21,271 nucleotides of DNA from IMG/VR virus record IMGVR_UViG_3300043446_002563, positions 1 to 21,271 of that record. One strand, given 5' to 3'. The stretch is from a virus. The notes under the pieces are model-generated. The model was not told where the DNA came from. It worked only from the letters and a program-made list of their open reading frames with translations, and ran no database searches. The position numbers were made by a program, and so were the translations under genes. This document shows, piece after piece, positions 3,356 to 17,339 of this stretch (position 1 is the first letter of the stretch; each line of letters starts with the position of its first letter).

Positions 3356-4945
3356 TCACATATCTAAACCATAATCTTCTTGATACACATCATCAATAGG
3401 TGGAAAATCTACATTATCCTGAAAGTCAATATTATATTCTGGATATTCTACATAAGGATCTTCATTTTCCAAAATAAGTTCTGGTTGATGATTATCTGAC
3501 GGATGATCTTCTAAGAATTTGTCTATAAGGTCTGCAGTATTTCCGTCAGGAGTTTCATCATTTTCAGCGTTATTGTTAGGTCCTGAGTTACCTGGAGCAT
3601 CTTGATCTCCATTACCCCATCCGTTGTTACCTTTACTTTCTGAGTTTCCTCCACCTCCTCCATTATCATTATCATCATTATTATTTGGATTTTTATCTTC
3701 TTTAGGTCCATCATTCTTCATATCGCCTGGTGGTTGATTTGGTTCTGGGTCTTGTCCATCTTGATGATTTCCTTTTCCAGGATTATCTGATGCCCCAGTT
3801 TCACCATCCCAAGGAGAATTACCCACTTCCTTATCATTACCAGGATTACTACCAACATCTTCTGGATTTGGATCTTCTGGTTCCTCAGGATCTTCTAAAT
3901 CTTCATCATTCTCCGCATTATTATTTGGCCCTGAATTGCCAGGAGCATCCTGATCCCCATTTCCAAATCCATTATTCCCGTCATTATTTGGAGACCCATC
4001 ATTGCCATTACCATTCCCATTTTGGTGAGAATTACCTTGTTCTCCTGGAGTTTCATCATTCTCCGCATTATTATTTGAACCTGAATTTCCAGGAGCATCC
4101 TGGTCTCCATTTCCAAATCCATTATTTTCTTTATCCTTATCTTTAGGGTCTTCTGGATCTTCGGGGTCTTCTGGATCTTCGGGGTCTTCTGGATCTTCGG
4201 GGTCTTCTGGATCTTCGGGGTCTTCTGGATCTTCGGGGTCTTCTGGATCTTCGGGGTCTTCTGGATCTTCAGGATCAACAGGAGGATCAACTGGAGGTTC
4301 CTCAGGATCAACAGGAGGATCAACTGGAGGTTCCTCAGGATCTACAGGAGGATCAACTGGTGGATCAACTGGAGGTTCCTCAGGATCAACAGGAGGATCA
4401 ACTGGAGGTTCCTCAGGATCTACAGGAGGATCAACTGGTGGATCAACTGGAGGTTCCTCAGGATCTACAGGAGGATCAACTGGTGGGTCCAGTGGAGGAA
4501 CTACTGGAGGTTCTAGAGTAGGAATTACAGGTTCTTGTGGATCTTGTCTATCAGGAACCTCAGGACTATTACTGACACCGACAGGGATATTAACAGTGTC
4601 AGGTAAGTTATTAGTATTGGCATTTGGTGGTCTTGATGGATCGTTTAATGGAACTTCTGAGTTGATATTTTGTTGATTAGGAACTCTTTCATTCAAAGCA
4701 AAATCACTTCCACCAGAAGCAAGGTCTTGTGGATTATTAATACCAAGATCAGAGTTTATCTCAGCAGTTGCTTCTACTTCACCAACACGAATTGGATTTA
4801 CCTGTTCTACTGGAGTATTATCTCCTCCCTTTCCCCCTGGAGTATAACCTTCTGCAAAACGAGCAGCAGCATTAGGATCGTGAATAGTTGGATCCTGTGC
4901 TTGCTGATTTGTTCTTTGCGTTTCTTCAAGTTGTAGTTCTTCCAT
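3356..4945 (-). CDS. Repeat-rich proline/acidic protein (529 aa)
   Basis: No enzyme domain is visible. Residues 1-140 are a mixed N-terminal region. Residues about 145-230 are proline-rich repeats of PPVDP and EEPPVDP units. Residues about 230-267 are a pure EDP tandem. The remainder is Asn/Gly-rich and carries three copies of a module with core GNGDQDAPGNSG followed by NNNAEND (first one NNGFG-, last one NNGWG-). The C-terminal 50 residues (ELILENEDPYVEYPEYN...) are acidic and unique. It has no signal peptide or membrane span and almost no cysteine. A GGAG ribosome site and a late-type CTAAATA motif lie upstream, and a strong terminator follows, so it is a separate, probably late, unit. A virion surface, spacer or decoration protein is plausible. 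The GNGDQDAPG module recalls cell-surface proteins of bacteria. Identity is unknown. Confidence 0.8.
   Translation of the reverse strand: MEELQLEETQRTNQQAQDPTIHDPNAAARFAEGYTPGGKGGDNTPVEQVNPIRVGEVEATAEINSDLGINNPQDLASGGSDFALNERVPNQQNINSEVPLNDPSRPPNANTNNLPDTVNIPVGVSNSPEVPDRQDPQEPVIPTLEPPVVPPLDPPVDPPVDPEEPPVDPPVDPPVDPEEPPVDPPVDPEEPPVDPPVDPPVDPEEPPVDPPVDPEEPPVDPPVDPEDPEDPEDPEDPEDPEDPEDPEDPEDPEDPEDPEDPEDPEDPKDKDKENNGFGNGDQDAPGNSGSNNNAENDETPGEQGNSHQNGNGNGNDGSPNNDGNNGFGNGDQDAPGNSGPNNNAENDEDLEDPEEPEDPNPEDVGSNPGNDKEVGNSPWDGETGASDNPGKGNHQDGQDPEPNQPPGDMKNDGPKEDKNPNNNDDNDNGGGGGNSESKGNNGWGNGDQDAPGNSGPNNNAENDETPDGNTADLIDKFLEDHPSDNHQPELILENEDPYVEYPEYNIDFQDNVDFPPIDDVYQEDYGLDM
4146..4270. repeat. 18-bp perfect tandem repeat (about 6.9 copies)
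   Basis: The unit GGGTCTTCTGGATCTTCG on the plus strand is repeated without a mismatch from 4146 to 4270. It encodes the EDP run in the minus-strand ORF (6 residues per unit). Perfect identity suggests recent expansion by slippage and likely copy-number variation between isolates. Confidence 0.95.
4271..4500. repeat. Degenerate GGATCAAC-based tandem repeats coding PPVDP
   Basis: Units built from AGGATCAAC/TGGAGG(A/T) alternate in higher-order blocks of about 36 and 51 bp, giving PPVDP and PEEPPVDP protein repeats. Small base differences (ACA/ACT/TCT) between copies show that they are older than the adjacent 18-bp array. Confidence 0.85.
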
Positions 4946-5083: not shown

Positions 5084-5154
5084 AAGTCTTGTGTGACGGA
5101 CATTATAAACATAAAGAAACCAAATGCTATGAAGAATGTGAGGATGAGGAGCAT
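5080..5154 (-). CDS. Candidate 24-aa single-span membrane peptide
   Basis: MLLILTFFIAFGFFMFIMSV plus TQDL is almost entirely a transmembrane helix. Its start lies 28 nt inside the 3' end of the GIY-YIG gene, and its stop overlaps the start of the 36-aa gene (ATGA). It has no obvious ribosome site. It could be a true small membrane protein or chance hydrophobic sequence; the coupled junction favours the former. Confidence 0.4.
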   Translation of the reverse strand: MLLILTFFIAFGFFMFIMSVTQDL

Positions 5155-5741
5155 AGTTTTTGATTTGCGTATTCTATAACTTCCTGTATTGGTAGTTCTT
5201 TTGAGAAGTGCTCCGAACCACCTATTATACCATCAATTTTATTTTGGTGACATTTGTATCTATCTAGAATATATCTTTCACAATCAAATACTTCTTTATG
5301 TGATGCTTTCCATTCACCAAGTTCTTTTATAGTTTCAGTAAATCTATATTTTATTCCGTGGAAAGACCTACCAATCTTATAAGTTCCATAAATGGTTTCA
5401 ATAAAATACAAGTAGTCTTCTCTATCAGACCACTCTTCCTTAAAACCAAAAAATCCATAACTTTTTGATACACCAACAGTTCCAGCATTCCAAGTTGGTT
5501 TCCCAAATGCAGGATTATTTTTTCCAACTTTTGATTTTCTCTTACAACAAAATGCTTCACCACCTTTCTCATAAGTTACAATAAAGTTTCTTATACTCAT
5601 ATTTCTCTGACCTGTGCAGGGGCAACTAACAACAACATCAGTTGACCTACGAACAAGTTTTTCTGGGAGATAAATTACTTCTAATTTTCTACGCTTACAT
5701 TCAGTTATTACTAGGTTATGTAAATCCATAAGGTTGCTCAT
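5127..5741 (-). CDS. Free-standing GIY-YIG-like homing endonuclease
   Basis: The 204-aa protein has an N-terminal region with paired cysteines (CPC at about 41-43, CC near 65) resembling a zinc-binding or DNA-binding element. A NUMOD3-like motif GKNNPAFGKPTWNAG (about 73-87) follows. Then comes a domain reading DYLYFIETIYGTYKIGRS with a downstream Arg (KYRF), as in the YLY-I...YKIG.S...R core of the GIY-YIG/T5orf172 superfamily. The last residues (QKLCSSSSHSS) look like read-through into older sequence. It sits 73 nt after the psbA stop, has its own late promoter TATAAATA at 5755-5762, and lies near the ORF-less psbA intron 2. By analogy with S-PM2, where a free-standing endonuclease next to psbA cuts the intron site (F-CphI), it may mobilise intron 2. 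Nuclease class is moderately certain; the target is inferred. Confidence 0.75.
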   Translation of the reverse strand: MSNLMDLHNLVITECKRRKLEVIYLPEKLVRRSTDVVVSCPCTGQRNMSIRNFIVTYEKGGEAFCCKRKSKVGKNNPAFGKPTWNAGTVGVSKSYGFFGFKEEWSDREDYLYFIETIYGTYKIGRSFHGIKYRFTETIKELGEWKASHKEVFDCERYILDRYKCHQNKIDGIIGGSEHFSKELPIQEVIEYANQKLCSSSSHSS

Positions 5742-5886: not shown

Positions 5887-7962
5887 CAATTGTGTTATCG
5901 TAAAGACTCTTTATTCTTTACTTCTTACTGTCGCCAGTAAGTTCAGACTATCTCTTCATCCGTTCTGGATGTCGGGCATTCGTGGATGGATTATTGTTGG
6001 GACTCACCATCTAGTCGTTAGACCTTTCAGAAAACTTAAACCCTTTCTGACTTGGTACGGGATTGTCTCATAGAGAGTTTCCCCGTTTAACCCGATTTTA
6101 CTAATGCTTATTCCTAAGCAAGAACACCAACAAATCTAGCGTTCCGTTCGTGCATTACCTCCATGCCCAGACCAGCACGGTTCAGCACATCTGCCCAGGT
6201 GTTGATTACACGATTTTGAGAATCAACAATAGACTGGTTGAAATTAAAACCGTTAAGGTTGAAAGCCATCGTGGAAACACCAAGAGCGGTGAACCAGATA
6301 CCAACTACAGGCCAGGCAGCAAGGAAGAAGTGCAGTGAACGTGAGTTATTGAACGATGCGTATTGGAAAATAAGGCGTCCGAAATAACCGTGTGCAGCAA
6401 CAATGTTATAAGTCTCTTCTTCTTGACCGAACTTGTAACCATAGTTCTGTGACTCGTTCTCAGTGGTTTCACGAACCAGTGAGGAAGTTACCAGAGAACC
6501 GTGCATAGCACTGAACAGAGAACCACCGAAGACACCAGCAACACCAAGCATATGGAATGGGTGCATCAGAATGTTATGTTCTGCCTGGAACACAAGCATG
6601 TAGTTAAAAGTACCAGAGATACCCAGAGGCATCGCATCAGAGAAAGAACCTTGACCGAAAGGATAAACCAGGAATACAGCAGAAGCAGCAGCAACAGGTG
6701 CACTGTAAGCAACGCAGATCCAAGGACGCATACCTAGACGGTATGAGAGTTCCCACTCACGACCCATATAAGCATAGATGCCGATGAGGAAGTGGAATAC
6801 AACGAGTTGGAAAGGACCCCCATTATAGCAGTCGGGGGAACCATATGTTTCCATATGGACTGGACTATATCTTCACCTTATTATCTTTATAAGGTGTCGG
6901 GCGCTAATGTCGTATTACTCAACACGCTTGTTGAACCGACTAGTCTCTGAACCTTCCACAGAAGTATCGTCTGTGGCTTGGCTGCTGATTGGCGTATTCT
7001 CTAAAACCCAACTACAAGAAATACCACTTGTTAAAAGTCTATTTCCGTTAGCAACACTATTAAGATGTGAGGGATAAACTTTTATCCCATATTCTCCCAG
7101 TATCATAGAACAAACAGTTTTAAGTGTTTTATCTTGTTCTGGGTTAAACTCAACATTTCCAAGATGTTTACCAATAGACCGTTCAGTTAGTTTTTCGTAA
7201 ATGTGAAATACTTTCTTATACTTTCTATTAGTTAGAGTTTCTTGTGTTGCATTTTTTGGATTTTTATAGGCAAAGTTGATAAGGTTTTTACCAATTTTTT
7301 GCCTTACACTTTTAGGTTGTGTGAGAGCAGCAGCACGAAGTTGTCCGCTTTCTTTTGCAACCTTACCACCCTTCTTACCTGCAAGAGAAATAACTTGTTG
7401 GATTATTTCTTCTTTTGAAGAATACCCTGCAAGTGCTTTCCAAGCAATCTTATCTTCTTCATTTTCCCAAAGACGCCAGTTACAATAATGAAACATAGCG
7501 TGTTGTGTTGGAGAAACCTCTACAAGATTTTGTGGTTCGTCAGACCCACCAAGATATTTTGGAGTAAGATGATGTTTGTGTTTCATAAGAGAACTTAGCT
7601 TTCCAGCAGTTCACCCGATTTAAAGTGACCCAATATTATTTATAAAGCCACTCATCCAGACTTGCGGCTTCCCAAATTGGGTAGAAATGCAGTCCGATAG
7701 CATTTGAACTAGGAATAACAGCACCAGAGATGATGTTATTTCCATACATTAGAGAACCAGCAACTGGTTCACGAATCCCGTCGATGTCCACAGGAGGAGC
7801 ACCGATAAAGGCAATGATGAAGCAGATAGTTGCTGCTAAAAGTGTGGGAACCATAAGAGTACCAAACCACCCCACATAAAGACGATTATTAGTGGAAGTG
7901 ACCCATTCGCAAAACTGTTCCCAAGTATTTGATTGTCGTTGTTGTGAAAGTGTAGCAGTCAT
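5815..7962 (-). CDS. psbA: Photosystem II D1 protein, split by two group I introns
   Basis: Joining 7962-7646, 6828-6138 and 5886-5815 gives a 359-aa D1 without interruption (1080 nt). D1 is the PSII reaction-centre subunit in the thylakoid membrane; phage copies keep PSII repaired during infection. Residue numbers match the family exactly: Tyr161, Asp170, His190, His332/Glu333, His337, Asp342 and Ala344, the C-terminal processing site. Residue 130 is Glu (GREWEL), the form of high-light D1 isoforms. Intron 1 lies within codon 106 and intron 2 between Ala336 and His337, amid the manganese-cluster ligands. The splice sites follow group I rules (U before, G at the end) with 8-bp P1 pairings. 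The gene has a composite sigma70/late promoter, a 160-nt hairpin leader and its own terminator. Its base composition is visibly richer in GC than the neighbouring endonuclease genes. Confidence 0.97.
5887..6137 (-). ncRNA. Group I intron 2 of psbA (251 nt, no ORF)
   Basis: The intron follows exon U at 6138 and ends in G at 5887. P1 forms between exon GGAACGCU and guide GGUGUUCU (6121-6128) with the splice-site U-G pair. The core contains ACGGGGAAACUCUC and AGACAAUCCCGU, very like the P4-P6 region of the T4 td intron. The P7 strands are GACUA (6012-6016) and UAGUC (5946-5950, in GAGAUAGUCUGAAC). This points to subgroup IA2. Mobility probably depends on an endonuclease acting in trans. It resembles the reported small psbA intron of S-PM2. 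Confidence 0.9.
6138..6828 (-). CDS. psbA: psbA exon 2 (D1 residues 106-336)
   Basis: Begins with C completing codon 106, then Tyr-Asn-Gly-Gly-Pro-Phe, and ends MHERNA. It carries the main D1 transmembrane helices with Tyr161, His190 and the QB site. Unspliced reading would end after RFVGVLA in intron 2. The terminal GGAACGCT pairs with the intron 2 guide at 6121-6128. Confidence 0.95.
6915..7586 (-). CDS. Intron-encoded HNH homing endonuclease
   Basis: The 223-aa protein opens with [20 protein letters not shown], then [14 protein letters not shown], the H-H...N...H pattern of HNH nucleases with the metal-binding histidines at about 5-6 and 29-33. A basic middle ([12 protein letters not shown], about 69-80) and a C-terminal region with [10 protein letters not shown], likely DNA-binding, follow. 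It should cut intronless psbA at the codon-106 site and drive intron 1 homing. The final residues ([12 protein letters not shown]) are encoded by intron core sequence including P7, so coding and ribozyme constraints overlap. No Shine-Dalgarno is evident. A TATAAATA late promoter lies 51 nt upstream, as in the T4 td intron. Confidence 0.88.
   Translation of the reverse strand: MKHKHHLTPKYLGGSDEPQNLVEVSPTQHAMFHYCNWRLWENEEDKIAWKALAGYSSKEEIIQQVISLAGKKGGKVAKESGQLRAAALTQPKSVRQKIGKNLINFAYKNPKNATQETLTNRKYKKVFHIYEKLTERSIGKHLGNVEFNPEQDKTLKTVCSMILGEYGIKVYPSHLNSVANGNRLLTSGISCSWVLENTPISSQATDDTSVEGSETSRFNKRVE
7637..7644 (-). promoter_or_regulatory. Late promoter inside psbA intron 1 (TATAAATA)
   Basis: An exact TATAAATA on the minus strand begins at the second intron base. 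Transcripts starting near 7630 would lack the 5' splice site, so they could express the HNH protein but could not splice. Confidence 0.65.
7646..7962 (-). CDS. psbA: psbA exon 1 (D1 residues 1-105 and two bases of codon 106)
   Basis: Starts [20 protein letters not shown] and ends ...SLDEW plus CT. Without splicing, translation would add only Leu-Tyr-Lys and stop at 7636-7638. The last 8 exon bases (GAGTGGCT) pair with the intron guide at 7623-7630. There is no clear ribosome site; the leader ends in AACAAAA before the ATG. Confidence 0.95.
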
Positions 7963-8124
7963 TTTTGTTAAGAGAGTTAGATAAGAGTTCGGGGGGACGA
8001 ACGATTATTGTTATGTTCCACAGCACCCTCCACTGTGGATATGAAGGACGGATTTATAGTGCCCATTAGTCCTGGTGGGGCACTCAACAAGTTAATAAAC
8101 TTTACATTTCTTAACCCGTTGTTG
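7963..8124 (-). promoter_or_regulatory. psbA 5' leader with three hairpins
   Basis: No ORF is present. The RNA can form AGTGCCC/GGGCACT (8058-8084), TCCACAG/CTGTGGA (8017-8039) and GTTCG/CGAAC (7987-8002, loop of C residues), all perfect stems. A long structured leader suggests control of psbA mRNA stability or translation. Parts are repeated upstream of the 136-aa gene. Confidence 0.65.
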
Positions 8125-9154: not shown

Positions 9155-9303
9155 TTGTATTGATACTTTTTAGGTATTTATAAATCTATTCCTACACCAC
9201 CCTCCATCGTGGGTATGAGAGACTGTGTTTAACCTCCCCATAGGTCTCGGTTAGGAAGAGGAACTAGTGTTAAGAGATTGTTGTAATCCTTAACTTGTTG
9301 TTG
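9155..9303 (-). promoter_or_regulatory. Leader B, related to the psbA leader
   Basis: This non-coding stretch starts at a promoter identical over 20 bp to that of psbA. It contains a block TCATACCCACGATGGAGGGTG like TCATATCCACAGTGGAGGGTG in the psbA leader (split here by small differences), followed by TGT-GGAA. A TAACC/GGTTA stem is possible. It looks like a diverged duplicate of the psbA leader. Confidence 0.6.
9175..9182 (-). promoter_or_regulatory. Late promoter of the 136-aa gene (TATAAATA)
   Basis: An exact TATAAATA on the minus strand ends 20 nt before the ATG at 9154. Confidence 0.65.
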
Positions 9304-10243: not shown

Positions 10244-10544
10244 TGGAGACACTGTTGATCTTGATATTGATTTAGGATTTGGTATTACTATATCTCAGAG
10301 AGTTAGATTAAAAGGAATTGATGCAGCAGAAACAAGAACTTTAAATCTAGAAGAAAAGAAAAAAGGAATTGAAGCAAGACTATGGTTAGAAAAAGAACTT
10401 TCTAAACAAGGTGAATGGATAATTGAAACAACTAAAGAAGATAAGTATGGAAGAATACTTGGAACTCTTTATCTCGTTGGTGATCCTGTTACAGTCAACG
10501 AAAGAATGTTGAATGGAGGTATTGCTGAACCTTATTTAATATAA
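10203..10544 (+). CDS. Staphylococcal-nuclease-like (thermonuclease family) protein
   Basis: The 113-aa protein has the complete SNase core: IDGDT (Asp14/Asp16), RLKGIDAAET with Arg35, Asp40 and Glu43, and KYGRILG with Arg84. These match the calcium-binding and catalytic Asp21, Arg35, Asp40, Glu43 and Arg87 of staphylococcal nuclease. It would cut DNA and RNA in the presence of calcium. There is no signal peptide, so it should act in the infected cell. Host DNA breakdown or nucleotide recycling is a reasonable role. It ends the plus-strand block, and its 3' end overlaps that of the convergent PilZ-like gene by 13 nt, with no separate terminator visible. Confidence 0.9.
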   Translation: MYQYKIKKINRVIDGDTVDLDIDLGFGITISQRVRLKGIDAAETRTLNLEEKKKGIEARLWLEKELSKQGEWIIETTKEDKYGRILGTLYLVGDPVTVNERMLNGGIAEPYLI

Positions 10545-10852
10545 GAACTTAATTCAGAAAAAGTCAAATTATATTTACTATGAAAACCCATACACCTTAA
10601 AGTGACATTTATCGGATCAATCCACTTTAAGGTTACAGGCATTTTAATTACTCTTCCACCTTTTTCCAAACTCAAAAGACCCATATCTCCAATTTGAAAT
10701 TGAGATATCATTTGCTTTATTGTAATACAAAATCCATAATCACTAATATCCAAAAGTCTTCCAATTACTTTTACTTCTCCATCAACTGAAAAAGTAACTT
10801 TAGTAAAATGATATTGATCTACAACTGTTCTTAAACTTCTGTTTATTTCCAT
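10532..10852 (-). CDS. PilZ-like beta-barrel protein (106 aa), tentative
   Basis: The sequence is predicted mostly beta: KVTFSVDGEVKVIGRLLDIS, then DYGFCITIKQ, GLLSLEKGG, IKMPVTLKWI and VTLRCMGF. The block GRLLDISDYGFCITI at about 31-45 recalls the D-S-x-x-G part of PilZ c-di-GMP receptors. The N-terminal RxxxR motif needed for c-di-GMP is not convincing (NRSLR only). Binding of the nucleotide is therefore doubtful. Its ATG overlaps the lysozyme stop by one base (TAATG), so it is expressed with the lysis-type module. Other small beta-barrel folds are possible. Confidence 0.5.
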   Translation of the reverse strand: MEINRSLRTVVDQYHFTKVTFSVDGEVKVIGRLLDISDYGFCITIKQMISQFQIGDMGLLSLEKGGRVIKMPVTLKWIDPINVTLRCMGFHSKYNLTFSELSSYIK

Positions 10853-11304
10853 TATTTTTTCCAGAGGTCTCCTTCTACTTTTCGTCTTCTTACTAAACCT
10901 AATTCTACATCTGTACCAGGATTTCTGTAAAGGTATAAGGCACCAGGAACTTTACTCCATTCCTTATTTTTAAGAACTCTAGTTATAGTGTTAAAGTCAG
11001 GGCTTCCATAAAAATTAGCACCAAGATTATAAGCAAAAGAAAGAATTGCGCCTTGTTGATTTTCATTCATTTCACTCCAATAGGGAATTTTTTGTAAAAG
11101 AGGAAGAAATCTATTTTCCAAATCAAACTCCAAAAGTTTATTAGCATATTCTTGAGTGATAGTTCTTCCCATTTTAAATGGAGTTCCGTTGAAATCTTTT
11201 GTACTTCCCCATCCTATCGTAATCGGTGGTCCTTTAGTTAATGGATCTGGATAAGCATTTAAATGACATCCTTCAAATTCTTTTATTAAATTAATGCCAA
11301 CCAA
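10852..11304 (-). CDS. GH24 (T4-lysozyme family) muramidase domain
   Basis: This frame encodes INLIKEFEGCHLNAYPDP with Glu11 and Asp20, then ITIGWGST, which is the E-D-T catalytic pattern of phage lysozymes that cleave peptidoglycan MurNAc-GlcNAc bonds. The C-terminal part has NENQQGAILSFAYNLG and GLVRRRKVEGDLW, both typical of the family. The only start in this frame is a TTG at 11304 without a ribosome site. The frame is open further upstream as VEVPTNNTKIPLVGIN, and it begins exactly at a slippery A-AAA-AAG at the end of the peptidase gene. The domain is therefore probably the C-terminal half of a 393-aa frameshift product. A homopolymer indel in the six-A run is the alternative. Confidence 0.85.
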   Translation of the reverse strand: MVGINLIKEFEGCHLNAYPDPLTKGPPITIGWGSTKDFNGTPFKMGRTITQEYANKLLEFDLENRFLPLLQKIPYWSEMNENQQGAILSFAYNLGANFYGSPDFNTITRVLKNKEWSKVPGALYLYRNPGTDVELGLVRRRKVEGDLWKK

Positions 11305-11343
11305 CGGAATTTTGGTATTGTTAGTTGGTACTTCTACTTTTTT
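11297..11343 (-). promoter_or_regulatory. Programmed -1 ribosomal frameshift signal
   Basis: On the minus strand the heptamer A AAA AAG (11337-11343) lies in the zero frame right before the peptidase stop TAG. After an 8-nt spacer, CCAACTAAC (11320-11328) pairs with GTTGGTTGG (11297-11305) in a 9-bp stem with one G-U and a 14-nt loop. This has the layout of bacterial -1 frameshift sites such as dnaX. Slipping back one base leads straight into the lysozyme frame. Confidence 0.65.
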
Positions 11344-12032
11344 GCTTCAAAAATTCTACCCCAGCCATCATTACCAGCAGGACACCATCTACGAGCAAGT
11401 TCAGAACGCTTATAGACTGCTCCCTTACCATTAGTCACTGCACCAGTATATCCATCATTCAGAGAACCATAAGGATCATTTACAACATAATCTCCAGCAG
11501 GAGTTTTACCAATCACTACAACCATGTGCCCACCAGTAGGAGCAGATAGAGAACCCCTGTGCAAAATACCAATAACCACGGGTCTCCCAGCAGCAAGTTC
11601 ACGATCAAGATCAGCAAAAGTAAGATTGTAACTAAAGTGTGACTTAATACCATAAGACGAAAGAACACGTGTTTGAACAACGTGATCTGTTGTATCCCCA
11701 ATTGCAAATACTTTTTGAACGTAGGCATCATCGCCTTTTGCTCCTTGGAGTGTGCCTGGTTTAAAATACTCTAAACACATCGCACAAGAAGATGAATTAC
11801 AGGTTCTGCTTGCATCTCTGTAATTATCTGTCTGAGGATAAAAAGGAACTGCTAAAATTGATGACTGTGGTTTCTGTTCTTTAGTTCTATAAATCCTTAC
11901 CCAATTTGCTTCATCTTGCATTAAATCTTGTGCTTTAAGCAGCAAATCCTTTTCAAGTTGATCTACAGCAGCAACGTGCTTTGGATTTTTAGAATCAAAA
12001 TGAGTAAAAAAGTTATGGAGATCTATGACCAT
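11334..12032 (-). CDS. C39-like cysteine peptidase domain, 5' part of a peptidase-lysozyme
   Basis: The 232-aa product (ATG at 12032, MVIDLHNFFTHFD; a TTG at 12044 is also in frame) has a helical N-terminus to about residue 50. A papain-like C39/NlpC-type domain follows: VPFYPQTDNYRDASRTCNSS with the candidate nucleophile Cys78, AGRPVVIGILHRG, GGHMVVVIGKT with the catalytic His, and YVVNDPYGS supplying the third residue. Such domains cut peptide bonds, here plausibly peptidoglycan cross-links or a virion protein. It ends GRIFEAKK-stop, where a -1 frameshift would add the 161-aa lysozyme extension. A late-type CATAAATA promoter lies just upstream. The fused enzyme could be an endolysin or a tail-associated cell-wall hydrolase. 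Confidence 0.85.
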   Translation of the reverse strand: MVIDLHNFFTHFDSKNPKHVAAVDQLEKDLLLKAQDLMQDEANWVRIYRTKEQKPQSSILAVPFYPQTDNYRDASRTCNSSSCAMCLEYFKPGTLQGAKGDDAYVQKVFAIGDTTDHVVQTRVLSSYGIKSHFSYNLTFADLDRELAAGRPVVIGILHRGSLSAPTGGHMVVVIGKTPAGDYVVNDPYGSLNDGYTGAVTNGKGAVYKRSELARRWCPAGNDGWGRIFEAKK

Positions 12033-12054: not shown

Positions 12055-12062
12055 TATTTATG
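12055..12062 (-). promoter_or_regulatory. T4-type late promoter of the peptidase-lysozyme unit (CATAAATA)
   Basis: CATAAATA on the minus strand lies 22 nt before the ATG at 12032 and right after the peroxiredoxin terminator, as expected for a late lysis or virion gene. Confidence 0.6.
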
Positions 12063-12087
12063 AAAAAAGGAGGGTTTTACCCCTCCT
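12062..12087 (-). terminator. Terminator after the peroxiredoxin gene
   Basis: AGGAGGG (12081-12087) pairs with CCCTCCT (12068-12074) around a 6-nt loop, with a T tract following on the minus strand. Confidence 0.88.
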
Positions 12088-12091
12088 CAAA

Positions 12092-15767: not shown

Positions 15768-17228
15768 TCAGAACGTGAACTTCGTTTGAATAACACCACC
15801 CCACTTGGAGGCATTATCATTCAGGCGTTGGTTGTCACTTGCATAGAAGATTGCAGGAGTGATGCTGATGTTATCAGACACTTGATACTTGTAGAAGATT
15901 TCAAGCATCGTTGCATCCTCAAGGTCTTCGCCCGTAGGTGCCTGACCCACAGCAATACCAGCAGAATTACCCTTAGCAAATACATCTGCCCACTGGAGAC
16001 CAGCGAACCAAGATTGACTATCGGTAGCAGCACTCTCAGTACCACTTACAGTGTTCCAACCGTAAGAAGCAGAGATTGAAGGAACCCAACCCGATTGAGT
16101 GGGTTGCCAGTATGCGTTGATGGCATAACCGTTGGAAGTCTGACCAGGAACCAGAGTACCAGAAGCACCATTCAGACCGTTGTAGGTGCGAACACGGGTT
16201 CCTTCTGTACCGTAACGATAACCAAAAGCAATACCGTAGTTAGTACCACGATAACCGATTTGTGTCAGAGTGTTCAGAGCACCAGTCTCATCAAATTCTC
16301 CCTTGGAAGAATCAGAACCGTTCTGAGCAACATAGTTCACACCAGCAACAAATCCTTGCTTACCTTTTTGTTTCCACTGAGCACCGAAACCAGCACCAGT
16401 TGCTTTGTTATAAACACCAGGAGCACCAGCAACAGCAAAGAAGTCAAGAACTTCCGACTTATATGCCGAAGGAATCCATGCCATCTCAGTGTTACGAACC
16501 TTAGGTCCAACACTCAGAGTAGTGGTGTTATTGAAAGCAGGGAACTGATAGTAAAGACGATCAAGGACTACATTATCACCATTAGCACTGGAGAAGTTGT
16601 CTGCTTTGTCCAGTTTGAAGAGTGAGGAAGAAGAACCGAAAGGATCAGCACTGAAGTTAGAAGAACGCAGACGGGTGCGGAGCAGATCCGAACCAGTAAA
16701 CGAAGTATCAAAGTTCAGGCGAACATCATAGTTGAAAGCAGTACGAGTGCTTACATCAGTCTTGGTATCATAACCAGGAACACCACCCAGAACGAAAGTT
16801 GTTTCACCACGCAGTTTGGTAGTGGTAGAGAACTGAGTTGCTTCCAGTTGACCGATGCGTGCCTCAGCAGCATCAACGCGACCACGAAGAACAGCAAGTT
16901 CAGAGGCAAATTCTGCCTGTAGACGCTTCAGTTCATCGGTAACTTCAGTTACACGATCCAGGCAGGCATTCAGCAATGCTGCTGCTTCATAACGGGTCAT
17001 TGCCTGACCACCAACAAAGGTGCCGTTAGGATAACCTGCTACGCAACCGTAACGTTCAACAAGGTTGCTAAGTGCTTGGTAAGCCCAATCAGTAGGACGA
17101 ACATCGGAGAACTGAGTGATGCTCGTTACTTGGGGCATATCCACATAAGGACCATAAGGTTCTGCGAACGCAGCACCAGCGACCAGTGGAGTTGCAGCAA
17201 GAGTTGCTGCGAAAGCGGATTTAAACAT
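15768..17228 (-). CDS. Cyanobacterial-type outer-membrane porin (SLH + OprB)
   Basis: The 486-aa protein starts at ATG 17228 (MFKSAFAATLAATPLVAGAA), set by GAGG upstream and by the signal peptide ending AFA. A longer reading adds 35 unlikely residues. After the signal, an SLH domain (FSDVRPTDWAYQALSNLVER and GYPNGTFVGGQAMTRYEAAALL) anchors to the cell wall. A coiled coil (EVTDELKRLQAEFASELAVL) follows, then a beta-barrel of the OprB/iron-uptake porin type ending in ...QTKFTF, with the terminal Phe needed for membrane insertion. It looks intact and host-derived. It would add a diffusion channel to the host outer membrane, possibly for phosphate, iron or organic solutes. It lies in the same region as pstS and has its own promoter, leader and terminator. 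Confidence 0.93.
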   Translation of the reverse strand: MFKSAFAATLAATPLVAGAAFAEPYGPYVDMPQVTSITQFSDVRPTDWAYQALSNLVERYGCVAGYPNGTFVGGQAMTRYEAAALLNACLDRVTEVTDELKRLQAEFASELAVLRGRVDAAEARIGQLEATQFSTTTKLRGETTFVLGGVPGYDTKTDVSTRTAFNYDVRLNFDTSFTGSDLLRTRLRSSNFSADPFGSSSSLFKLDKADNFSSANGDNVVLDRLYYQFPAFNNTTTLSVGPKVRNTEMAWIPSAYKSEVLDFFAVAGAPGVYNKATGAGFGAQWKQKGKQGFVAGVNYVAQNGSDSSKGEFDETGALNTLTQIGYRGTNYGIAFGYRYGTEGTRVRTYNGLNGASGTLVPGQTSNGYAINAYWQPTQSGWVPSISASYGWNTVSGTESAATDSQSWFAGLQWADVFAKGNSAGIAVGQAPTGEDLEDATMLEIFYKYQVSDNISITPAIFYASDNQRLNDNASKWGGVIQTKFTF

Positions 17229-17339
17229 AAGTACCTCTATATTTTCTCGCAGAGTTTTCCTGCGGATGTAAGGAGTCTCGACATGACTCCGTTTATTCAA
17301 GTGACTACGGCAAGTAGTTGAGGCGTTCATCACTCGGTC
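17229..17339 (-). promoter_or_regulatory. Structured 5' leader of the porin gene
   Basis: On the minus strand ACTAC/GTAGT, GGAGTC/GACTCC and CGCAG/CTGCG hairpins follow one another before the GAGG ribosome site. No small ORF is convincing. The layout parallels the psbA leader. Confidence 0.5.

Follow-up and report, generated by a model that had tools for sequence, protein, structure and literature searches.

Programmed -1 ribosomal frameshifting, conserved among related phages, is very probably used by a cyanophage to obtain from one late gene both a C39 protein and a C39-muramidase fusion, probably an endolysin. The gene lies in a DNA stretch of 21,271 nucleotides (IMG/VR record IMGVR_UViG_3300043446_002563), hereafter the window, which is a 21-kb fragment of a T4-like cyanophage. 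In the proposed mechanism, ribosomes remaining in frame would stop at the TAG codon and release a protein of 232 aa, consisting of an N-terminal module (N-module) and a C39-like cysteine hydrolase. A fraction of ribosomes would slip by -1 on the heptamer A_AAA_AAG, aided by a hairpin 8 nt downstream, and read into the GH24 lysozyme, giving a product of 393 aa in which N-module, C39-like hydrolase and muramidase are joined. Made only as a fusion, the muramidase would acquire the N-module together with another activity that cuts peptidoglycan. The C39 protein would be made also alone, and the dose of muramidase relative to it would be set by the efficiency of frameshifting. We infer both the occurrence of the shift and its efficiency from sequence comparisons.

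The C39-lysozyme locus

The features of the locus are listed in Table 1. The junction GAA GCA AAA AAG TAG corresponds to positions 11348-11334 of the minus strand. The 5' (CCAACTAAC, 11328-11320) and 3' (GTTGGTTGG, 11305-11297) arms of the hairpin form one G-U among the 9 bp. Junction, heptamer phase, adjoining TAG, spacer, stem and loop had all been reported in a preliminary description of the window, which is base-for-base correct in these respects. After a -1 slip, translation would proceed as KK followed by VEVPTNNTKIPLVGINLIKEFEG; the frame is free of stops to 10852, confirming the 232 + 161 = 393 aa product described earlier. Just upstream of the heptamer a TGA blocks the -1 frame, and therefore a shift must occur at the heptamer. 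Since trypsin cuts at the junction KK, another protease is needed to obtain the junction peptide.

Table 1. Coordinates of the features of the C39-lysozyme locus in the window.
Feature	Position	Strand	Remarks
C39-like zero-frame gene	11334..12032	-	232 aa; ATG at 12032; C-terminus EAKK, then stop
Slippery heptamer A_AAA_AAG, X_XXY_YYZ phase	11337..11343	-	from the sequence; conserved in 53/109 dereplicated relatives
Zero-frame stop TAG	11334..11336	-	adjoins the 3' end of the heptamer
Putative stimulator hairpin	11297..11328	-	9 bp, 14-nt loop, 8-nt spacer; covarying homologues
Linker VEVPTNNTKIPLV and GH24 phage lysozyme, -1 frame	10852..11337	-	161 aa, without ATG start
T4-type late promoter motif CATAAATA	12055..12062	-	precedes the C39 ATG by about 30 nt
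Intrinsic terminator	12063..12088	-	between the upstream peroxiredoxin gene and the C39-lysozyme gene

Encoded domains, expression and host tRNA

The C39-like and GH24 domains named in the preliminary description were both recovered. The 232-aa protein matches Pfam Peptidase_C39_2 (PF13529) with E 3.5e-13, and the lysozyme matches Phage_lysozyme (PF00959) with E 1.2e-20 over profile positions 1-125 of 125, and is similar to solved lysozymes, such as 9kbq. A helical N-terminal module, corresponding approximately to residues 1-50, precedes the C39-like papain-fold cysteine hydrolase. C83, H169 and D186 are invariant in 22 relatives, and are plausibly the catalytic residues. No sequence match to P0001 was found in PDB. 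A papain-like fold is predicted by the C39 model (mean pLDDT 74.6). The fold search (VIA) aligned the C39 domain only (model residues 54-232), and its neighbours are papain-fold enzymes, C39 peptidase domains among them: 6mpz (Z 12.4), 3erv (Z 12.3) and the pseudomurein endoisopeptidase PeiR (Z 10.6). This last neighbour and the fused or adjacent lysozyme suggest that peptidoglycan is the substrate of the C39 hydrolase.

The motif ATAAATA was found within 120 nt upstream of the gene in 44 of the 109 related lineages described below (6.8 expected), mostly at a distance of 28-32 nt. The sequence NATAAATA is the reported late promoter of phage S-PM2 (PMC2984593). Late expression and the presence of two cell-wall-enzyme domains point to lysis, and a role as endolysin in lysis of the host is likely.

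In E. coli A_AAA_AAG is slippery owing to the weak pairing between AAG and the only tRNA-Lys present (PMC5009743). A single tRNA-Lys with anticodon UUU was found, among 38 tRNA matches, in one cyanobacterial genome of 2.52 Mb, which may not be that of a host. This is compatible with slipping being favoured on AAG, bearing in mind that the true hosts may differ. The strict tRNA-Lys pattern was too strict, and gave 1 match over 242 cyanobacterial genomes; by a looser pattern, both UUU and CUU tRNA-Lys were found in some other cyanobacterial genomes.

Other features of the window

A PilZ-domain protein, for which binding of c-di-GMP is possible, is encoded directly downstream of the lysozyme (10532-10852). 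The psbA gene, encoding D1 (5924-8094), is split by two group I introns (RF00028, 6841-7117 and 5924-6147). A homing-endonuclease-like ORF is found at psbA (6915-7586), another ORF just downstream (5127-5741). PhotoRC-II leaders are located upstream of psbA (8003-8094) and at 9178-9272. The region 15768-17333 encodes an SLH-domain outer-membrane porin of the OprB family, whose only close phage relative is found in S-SRM01 (70.8%); weaker S-layer-like matches are present in S-PM2 and S-CREM1. A protein of 529 aa (3356-4945) is mostly made of PPVDPEE/DPEDPE repeats, and has no Pfam match. A glutamine-riboswitch-like aptamer at 720-770 scores at the Rfam cut-off (35.3 bits versus 35).

Architecture of related loci

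Related loci, confirmed by tblastn, were collected from IMG/VR by four queries, and annotated phage records were added. The 310 pooled sequences were reduced to 152 distinct C39 3' junctions, and these to 109 lineages at 90% nucleotide identity. The most numerous class (53/109 lineages, 76 distinct junctions), hereafter the frameshift class, features an in-phase A_AAA_AAG, a C39 stop 0-1 codon later (TAG in 44 lineages, TAA in 8, TGA in 1) and a lysozyme in the -1 frame. Conservation of heptamer and stem among relatives, proposed earlier as a check, extends to these 53 dereplicated lineages, in which the hairpin is usually present. In 10 lineages the heptamer is accompanied by an overlapping ATGA/GTGA/TTGA lysozyme start. 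The lysozyme is separate in 18 lineages, is not found nearby downstream of C39 in 14, and is fused in frame to C39 in another 14 (10 lacking the heptamer, 2 with A_AAA_AAG, 2 with seven A). The frameshift reading is to be weighed against the fact that about half of the C39 lineages lack the signal, their lysozyme being separate, absent or fused in frame. Members of the frameshift class are dispersed over the C39 protein tree, a distribution requiring 24 changes, 11 of which are forced by well-supported branches. Architectures have hence been swapped repeatedly.

According to the preliminary description, frameshifting would be contradicted by relatives in which the run had five or seven A and the stem was missing. 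The outcome favours a programmed frameshift: nearly all the relatives arranged in -1 keep exactly A_AAA_AAG. Only two lineages combine seven A with an in-frame fusion, and in both the stem is kept.

The seven-A fusions are found in five contigs, L154, L155, L156 and L158 (around position 2500) and L218 (around 3184). These contigs may be either recent losses of the frameshift or local variants.

Cultured phages

The junction of phage S-PM2 (GATGCAAAAAAGTAACC) features the same heptamer signal and a lysozyme in the -1 frame; its hairpin, of 11 bp, lies at 5 nt and has a different sequence. A matching arrangement is found in the separately deposited record of an S-PM2 deletion mutant. The putative lysin annotated in GenBank for S-PM2 (L004, 1493-1711) is only the 72-aa C-terminal part, read from an internal codon. 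In three records of S-CAM7 the junction is GTT TTT TTT CCA CAG TAG, with in-phase U_UUU_UUU, a lysozyme in the -1 frame and an 8-bp hairpin (GTAGAACC/GGTTCTAC) at 5 nt. The S-CAM7 lysozyme (L323, 2499-2717) is similarly annotated from an internal start. The lysins of both phages would be annotated as C-terminal fragments because the putative frameshift was not recognised.

In ACG-2014f phages (L006, 1501-2718; L239-L241) C39 and lysozyme are in frame; the linker between them contains GCA AAA AAG TCT GA, and a hairpin is present. A -1 slip in this linker would lead to an immediate stop, and give C39 alone. The in-frame fusion of L262 is organized in the same way. Since polarity is here the opposite, the earlier statement that the fusion is made in smaller amounts is not established, and the ACG-2014f phages and L262 suggest that neither product need be rare.

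Different solutions were found in other phages. Lysozyme and C39 are in reverse order in S-CREM1 (L005, 1449-2630), where a purine-rich stretch (GGAGAGGAGG) and an ATG precede C39, which is possibly made alone by internal initiation. DSL-LC02 has two separate genes, and a copy of the N-terminal DLHNFFKFYD module is found in each. In MA10 the C39 domain is fused to a different C-terminal domain, chitinase-like by eye. In S-CRM01 (L326, around 1860-1900) the lysozyme ORF shifts by -1 near the conserved C-terminus, and continues into another domain; the change of frame may be either a sequencing error or another frameshift.

Conservation of the slip site

The heptamer alone was rejected as evidence: the window contains 19 copies of AAAAAAG where 13.8 are expected. 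The position and phase of the motif were analysed in the relatives. In all the 53 lineages of the frameshift class the codon preceding AAA AAG ends in A (GCA, GTA, ACA, TCA); the share of A-ending codons of the same families elsewhere in these genes is 29-39%. The motif AAAAAA[AG] near the stop was found in 91 of the 1,866 distinct long stop-to-stop ORF ends present in these loci, and 90 of the 91 are C39 ends (89 identified by a motif filter, plus that of L268, whose tail ASGWGRVFSAKK is also C39). C39 genes lacking a downstream lysozyme do not carry the AKK tail. In 32/53 lineages a stop is found in the -1 frame just upstream, and leaves a shift window of 13 nt, essentially heptamer and stop. 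In most lineages of the class a shift must therefore occur at the heptamer. The upstream G-R codons differ among classes, and no clearly conserved 5' Shine-Dalgarno-like stimulator was found among the relatives.

Conservation and covariation of the hairpin

Taken alone, the hairpin of the window is only moderately unusual (p 0.01 versus dinucleotide shuffles, p 0.10 versus synonymous recoding, folding z -1.56); its significance comes from the relatives. When helices beginning at most 12 nt from the heptamer are considered, the best one has a median length of 11 bp across the 53 frameshift lineages; the spacer in relatives varies from 2 to 8 nt (median 5). Compared with dinucleotide shuffles, 81 of 100 junctions have a better hairpin at p<=0.05; compared with versions in which the -1 frame is recoded synonymously, this is the case, at the same threshold, for 81% of the 53 lineages (Fisher p about 7e-27). 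The hypothesis that the hairpin is a by-product of the protein sequence is rejected by synonymous recoding at the level of the family, and not for the window alone.

Pairing registers were anchored at one end on the heptamer and at the other on the conserved LIKEFEG codons. Of the 76 junctions, 72 have their arms in pairing register 0, 3 or 6, all multiples of a codon, which suggests one homologous hairpin, plausibly kept through codon insertions and a nearly complete turnover of the sequence. In one family 98.6% of the cells are paired, with two-sided changes in 4 of 14 pairs; in another, 92.3% are paired, with two-sided changes in 4 of 12 pairs, for 13 such cells. Pairing was far lower in all slid controls, at 30-52% after displacement by 1-3 columns. 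The conserved heptamer, the -1-frame lysozyme and the covarying hairpin of the relatives argue for the programmed -1 frameshift originally proposed for the window.

Alternative modes of lysozyme expression

The lysozyme could be translated independently after the C39 stop, by termination-reinitiation or from a non-AUG start, and no fusion would be made. The preliminary description stated that the lysozyme frame has neither an ATG nor a ribosome site, and indeed no ATG precedes the lysozyme in the -1 frame of the window. The one non-ATG candidate start is the TTG at 11304, which is in frame ahead of the catalytic region; it lacks a Shine-Dalgarno sequence, and is buried in the 3' arm of the hairpin. 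Between C39 stop and catalytic region, ATG was found in none of the 53 frameshift lineages, and ATG, GTG and TTG are all missing in 29 of them. Coupled initiation is a serious alternative in the family, as ten related lineages have a true overlapping start. Strong hairpins were found in 4 of these ten (6 weak) versus 50 of 53 in the frameshift class (3 weak; Fisher p 2e-4), as expected if the start codon can replace the frameshift. These lineages, in which the heptamer is present and hairpins are on average weaker, indicate that initiation can replace frameshifting. An independent start would select neither an in-phase A_AAA_AAG nor a covarying hairpin, and is very unlikely to account for the arrangement of the window.

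Transcriptional slippage on the A run, adding one base and giving a fused mRNA, is even less probable. One extra A does give a fusion in the seven-A in-frame relatives, and S-CAM7 has eight T. However, a run of six A is short, bacterial slippage having been described on runs of 9 (PMC5009743), and the metagenomic contig L152 has the heptamer C_CCA_AAG and no long homopolymer. Moreover, both the X_XXY_YYZ phase and the downstream hairpin are conserved, and slippage requires neither of them.

An indel introduced by assembly or sequencing, or the decay of a formerly continuous gene into a pseudogene, may be imagined from the existence of relatives fused in frame (ACG-2014f and seven-A types), but is the least credible of all explanations. 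The arrangement is shared by 76 distinct junctions, drawn from many metagenomes and including dozens of contigs, and by the two records of cultured S-PM2. Both frames are intact, and the lysozyme keeps over deep divergence both the family match and a conserved N-terminal motif.

Comparison with known systems

Programmed -1 frameshifting, the preferred explanation, has a close parallel in the E. coli dnaX gene, which like the window features A_AAA_AAG, a downstream stem-loop and a nearby stop, and yields short and long products with a common N-terminus (PMC5009743). Frameshifting in dnaX is known in both polarities, and has been linked in a review to shift efficiencies near 50% (PMC5009743). 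The two polarities resemble the S-PM2 and ACG-2014f types described here, the E. coli dnaX polarity being that of the ACG-2014f phages and L262. The systems differ because dnaX has an upstream Shine-Dalgarno stimulator, none being clearly conserved among C39-lysozyme loci, and because dnaX is a cellular replication gene, and C39-lysozyme a phage gene with a proposed role in lysis. It is conceivable, though rather doubtful, that in lysis the cassette works like dnaX, as a device that fixes a ratio: C39 and C39-lysozyme would be kept by selection at a set ratio, in either polarity and by at least two heptamers, and strength or timing of lysis would depend on ribosomal slippage in the infected cell.

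In phages, frameshifting near the end of a gene gives some of the protein molecules an additional C-terminal domain in the case of tail-assembly chaperones G/GT and of capsid extensions. These concern structural or assembly proteins, whereas the domain appended here is a predicted catalytic muramidase. Apparent frameshifting has reportedly been noticed in the lysin of a lactococcal phage, in a different host and phage. T4 lacks the tail frameshift (PMC5009743). Two-polypeptide endolysins are known in which two isoforms are made from one gene through an in-frame internal start (iTSS; PMC9430671, PMC7098653, PMC4777826). In these the short form is the C-terminal part, whereas here it would be the N-terminal part, and the second domain would be gained by a change of frame. 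Assignment of the locus to iTSS endolysins was discarded, since lysozyme and C39 frames differ.

In agreement with the preliminary description, whose author was not aware of such an arrangement in cyanophages, no description of frameshifting in a cyanophage endolysin was found in the open-access literature, to which the search was confined. Frameshifting itself is a known mechanism; that literature appears to contain no account of a cyanophage employing it for an endolysin, with heptamers and polarities that are interchangeable.

Ordinary ORF calling misses the predicted fusion product in the window, as well as in dozens of related contigs. If the frameshift is real, it explains the truncated lysin annotations of S-PM2 and S-CAM7, the real product being a two-enzyme fusion. 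The different loci would provide a natural series, in which one signal comes in both polarities and with several heptamers and stems, and cultured phages would allow this series to be tested. Programmed frameshifting would thereby enter the lysis step of abundant cyanomyoviruses.
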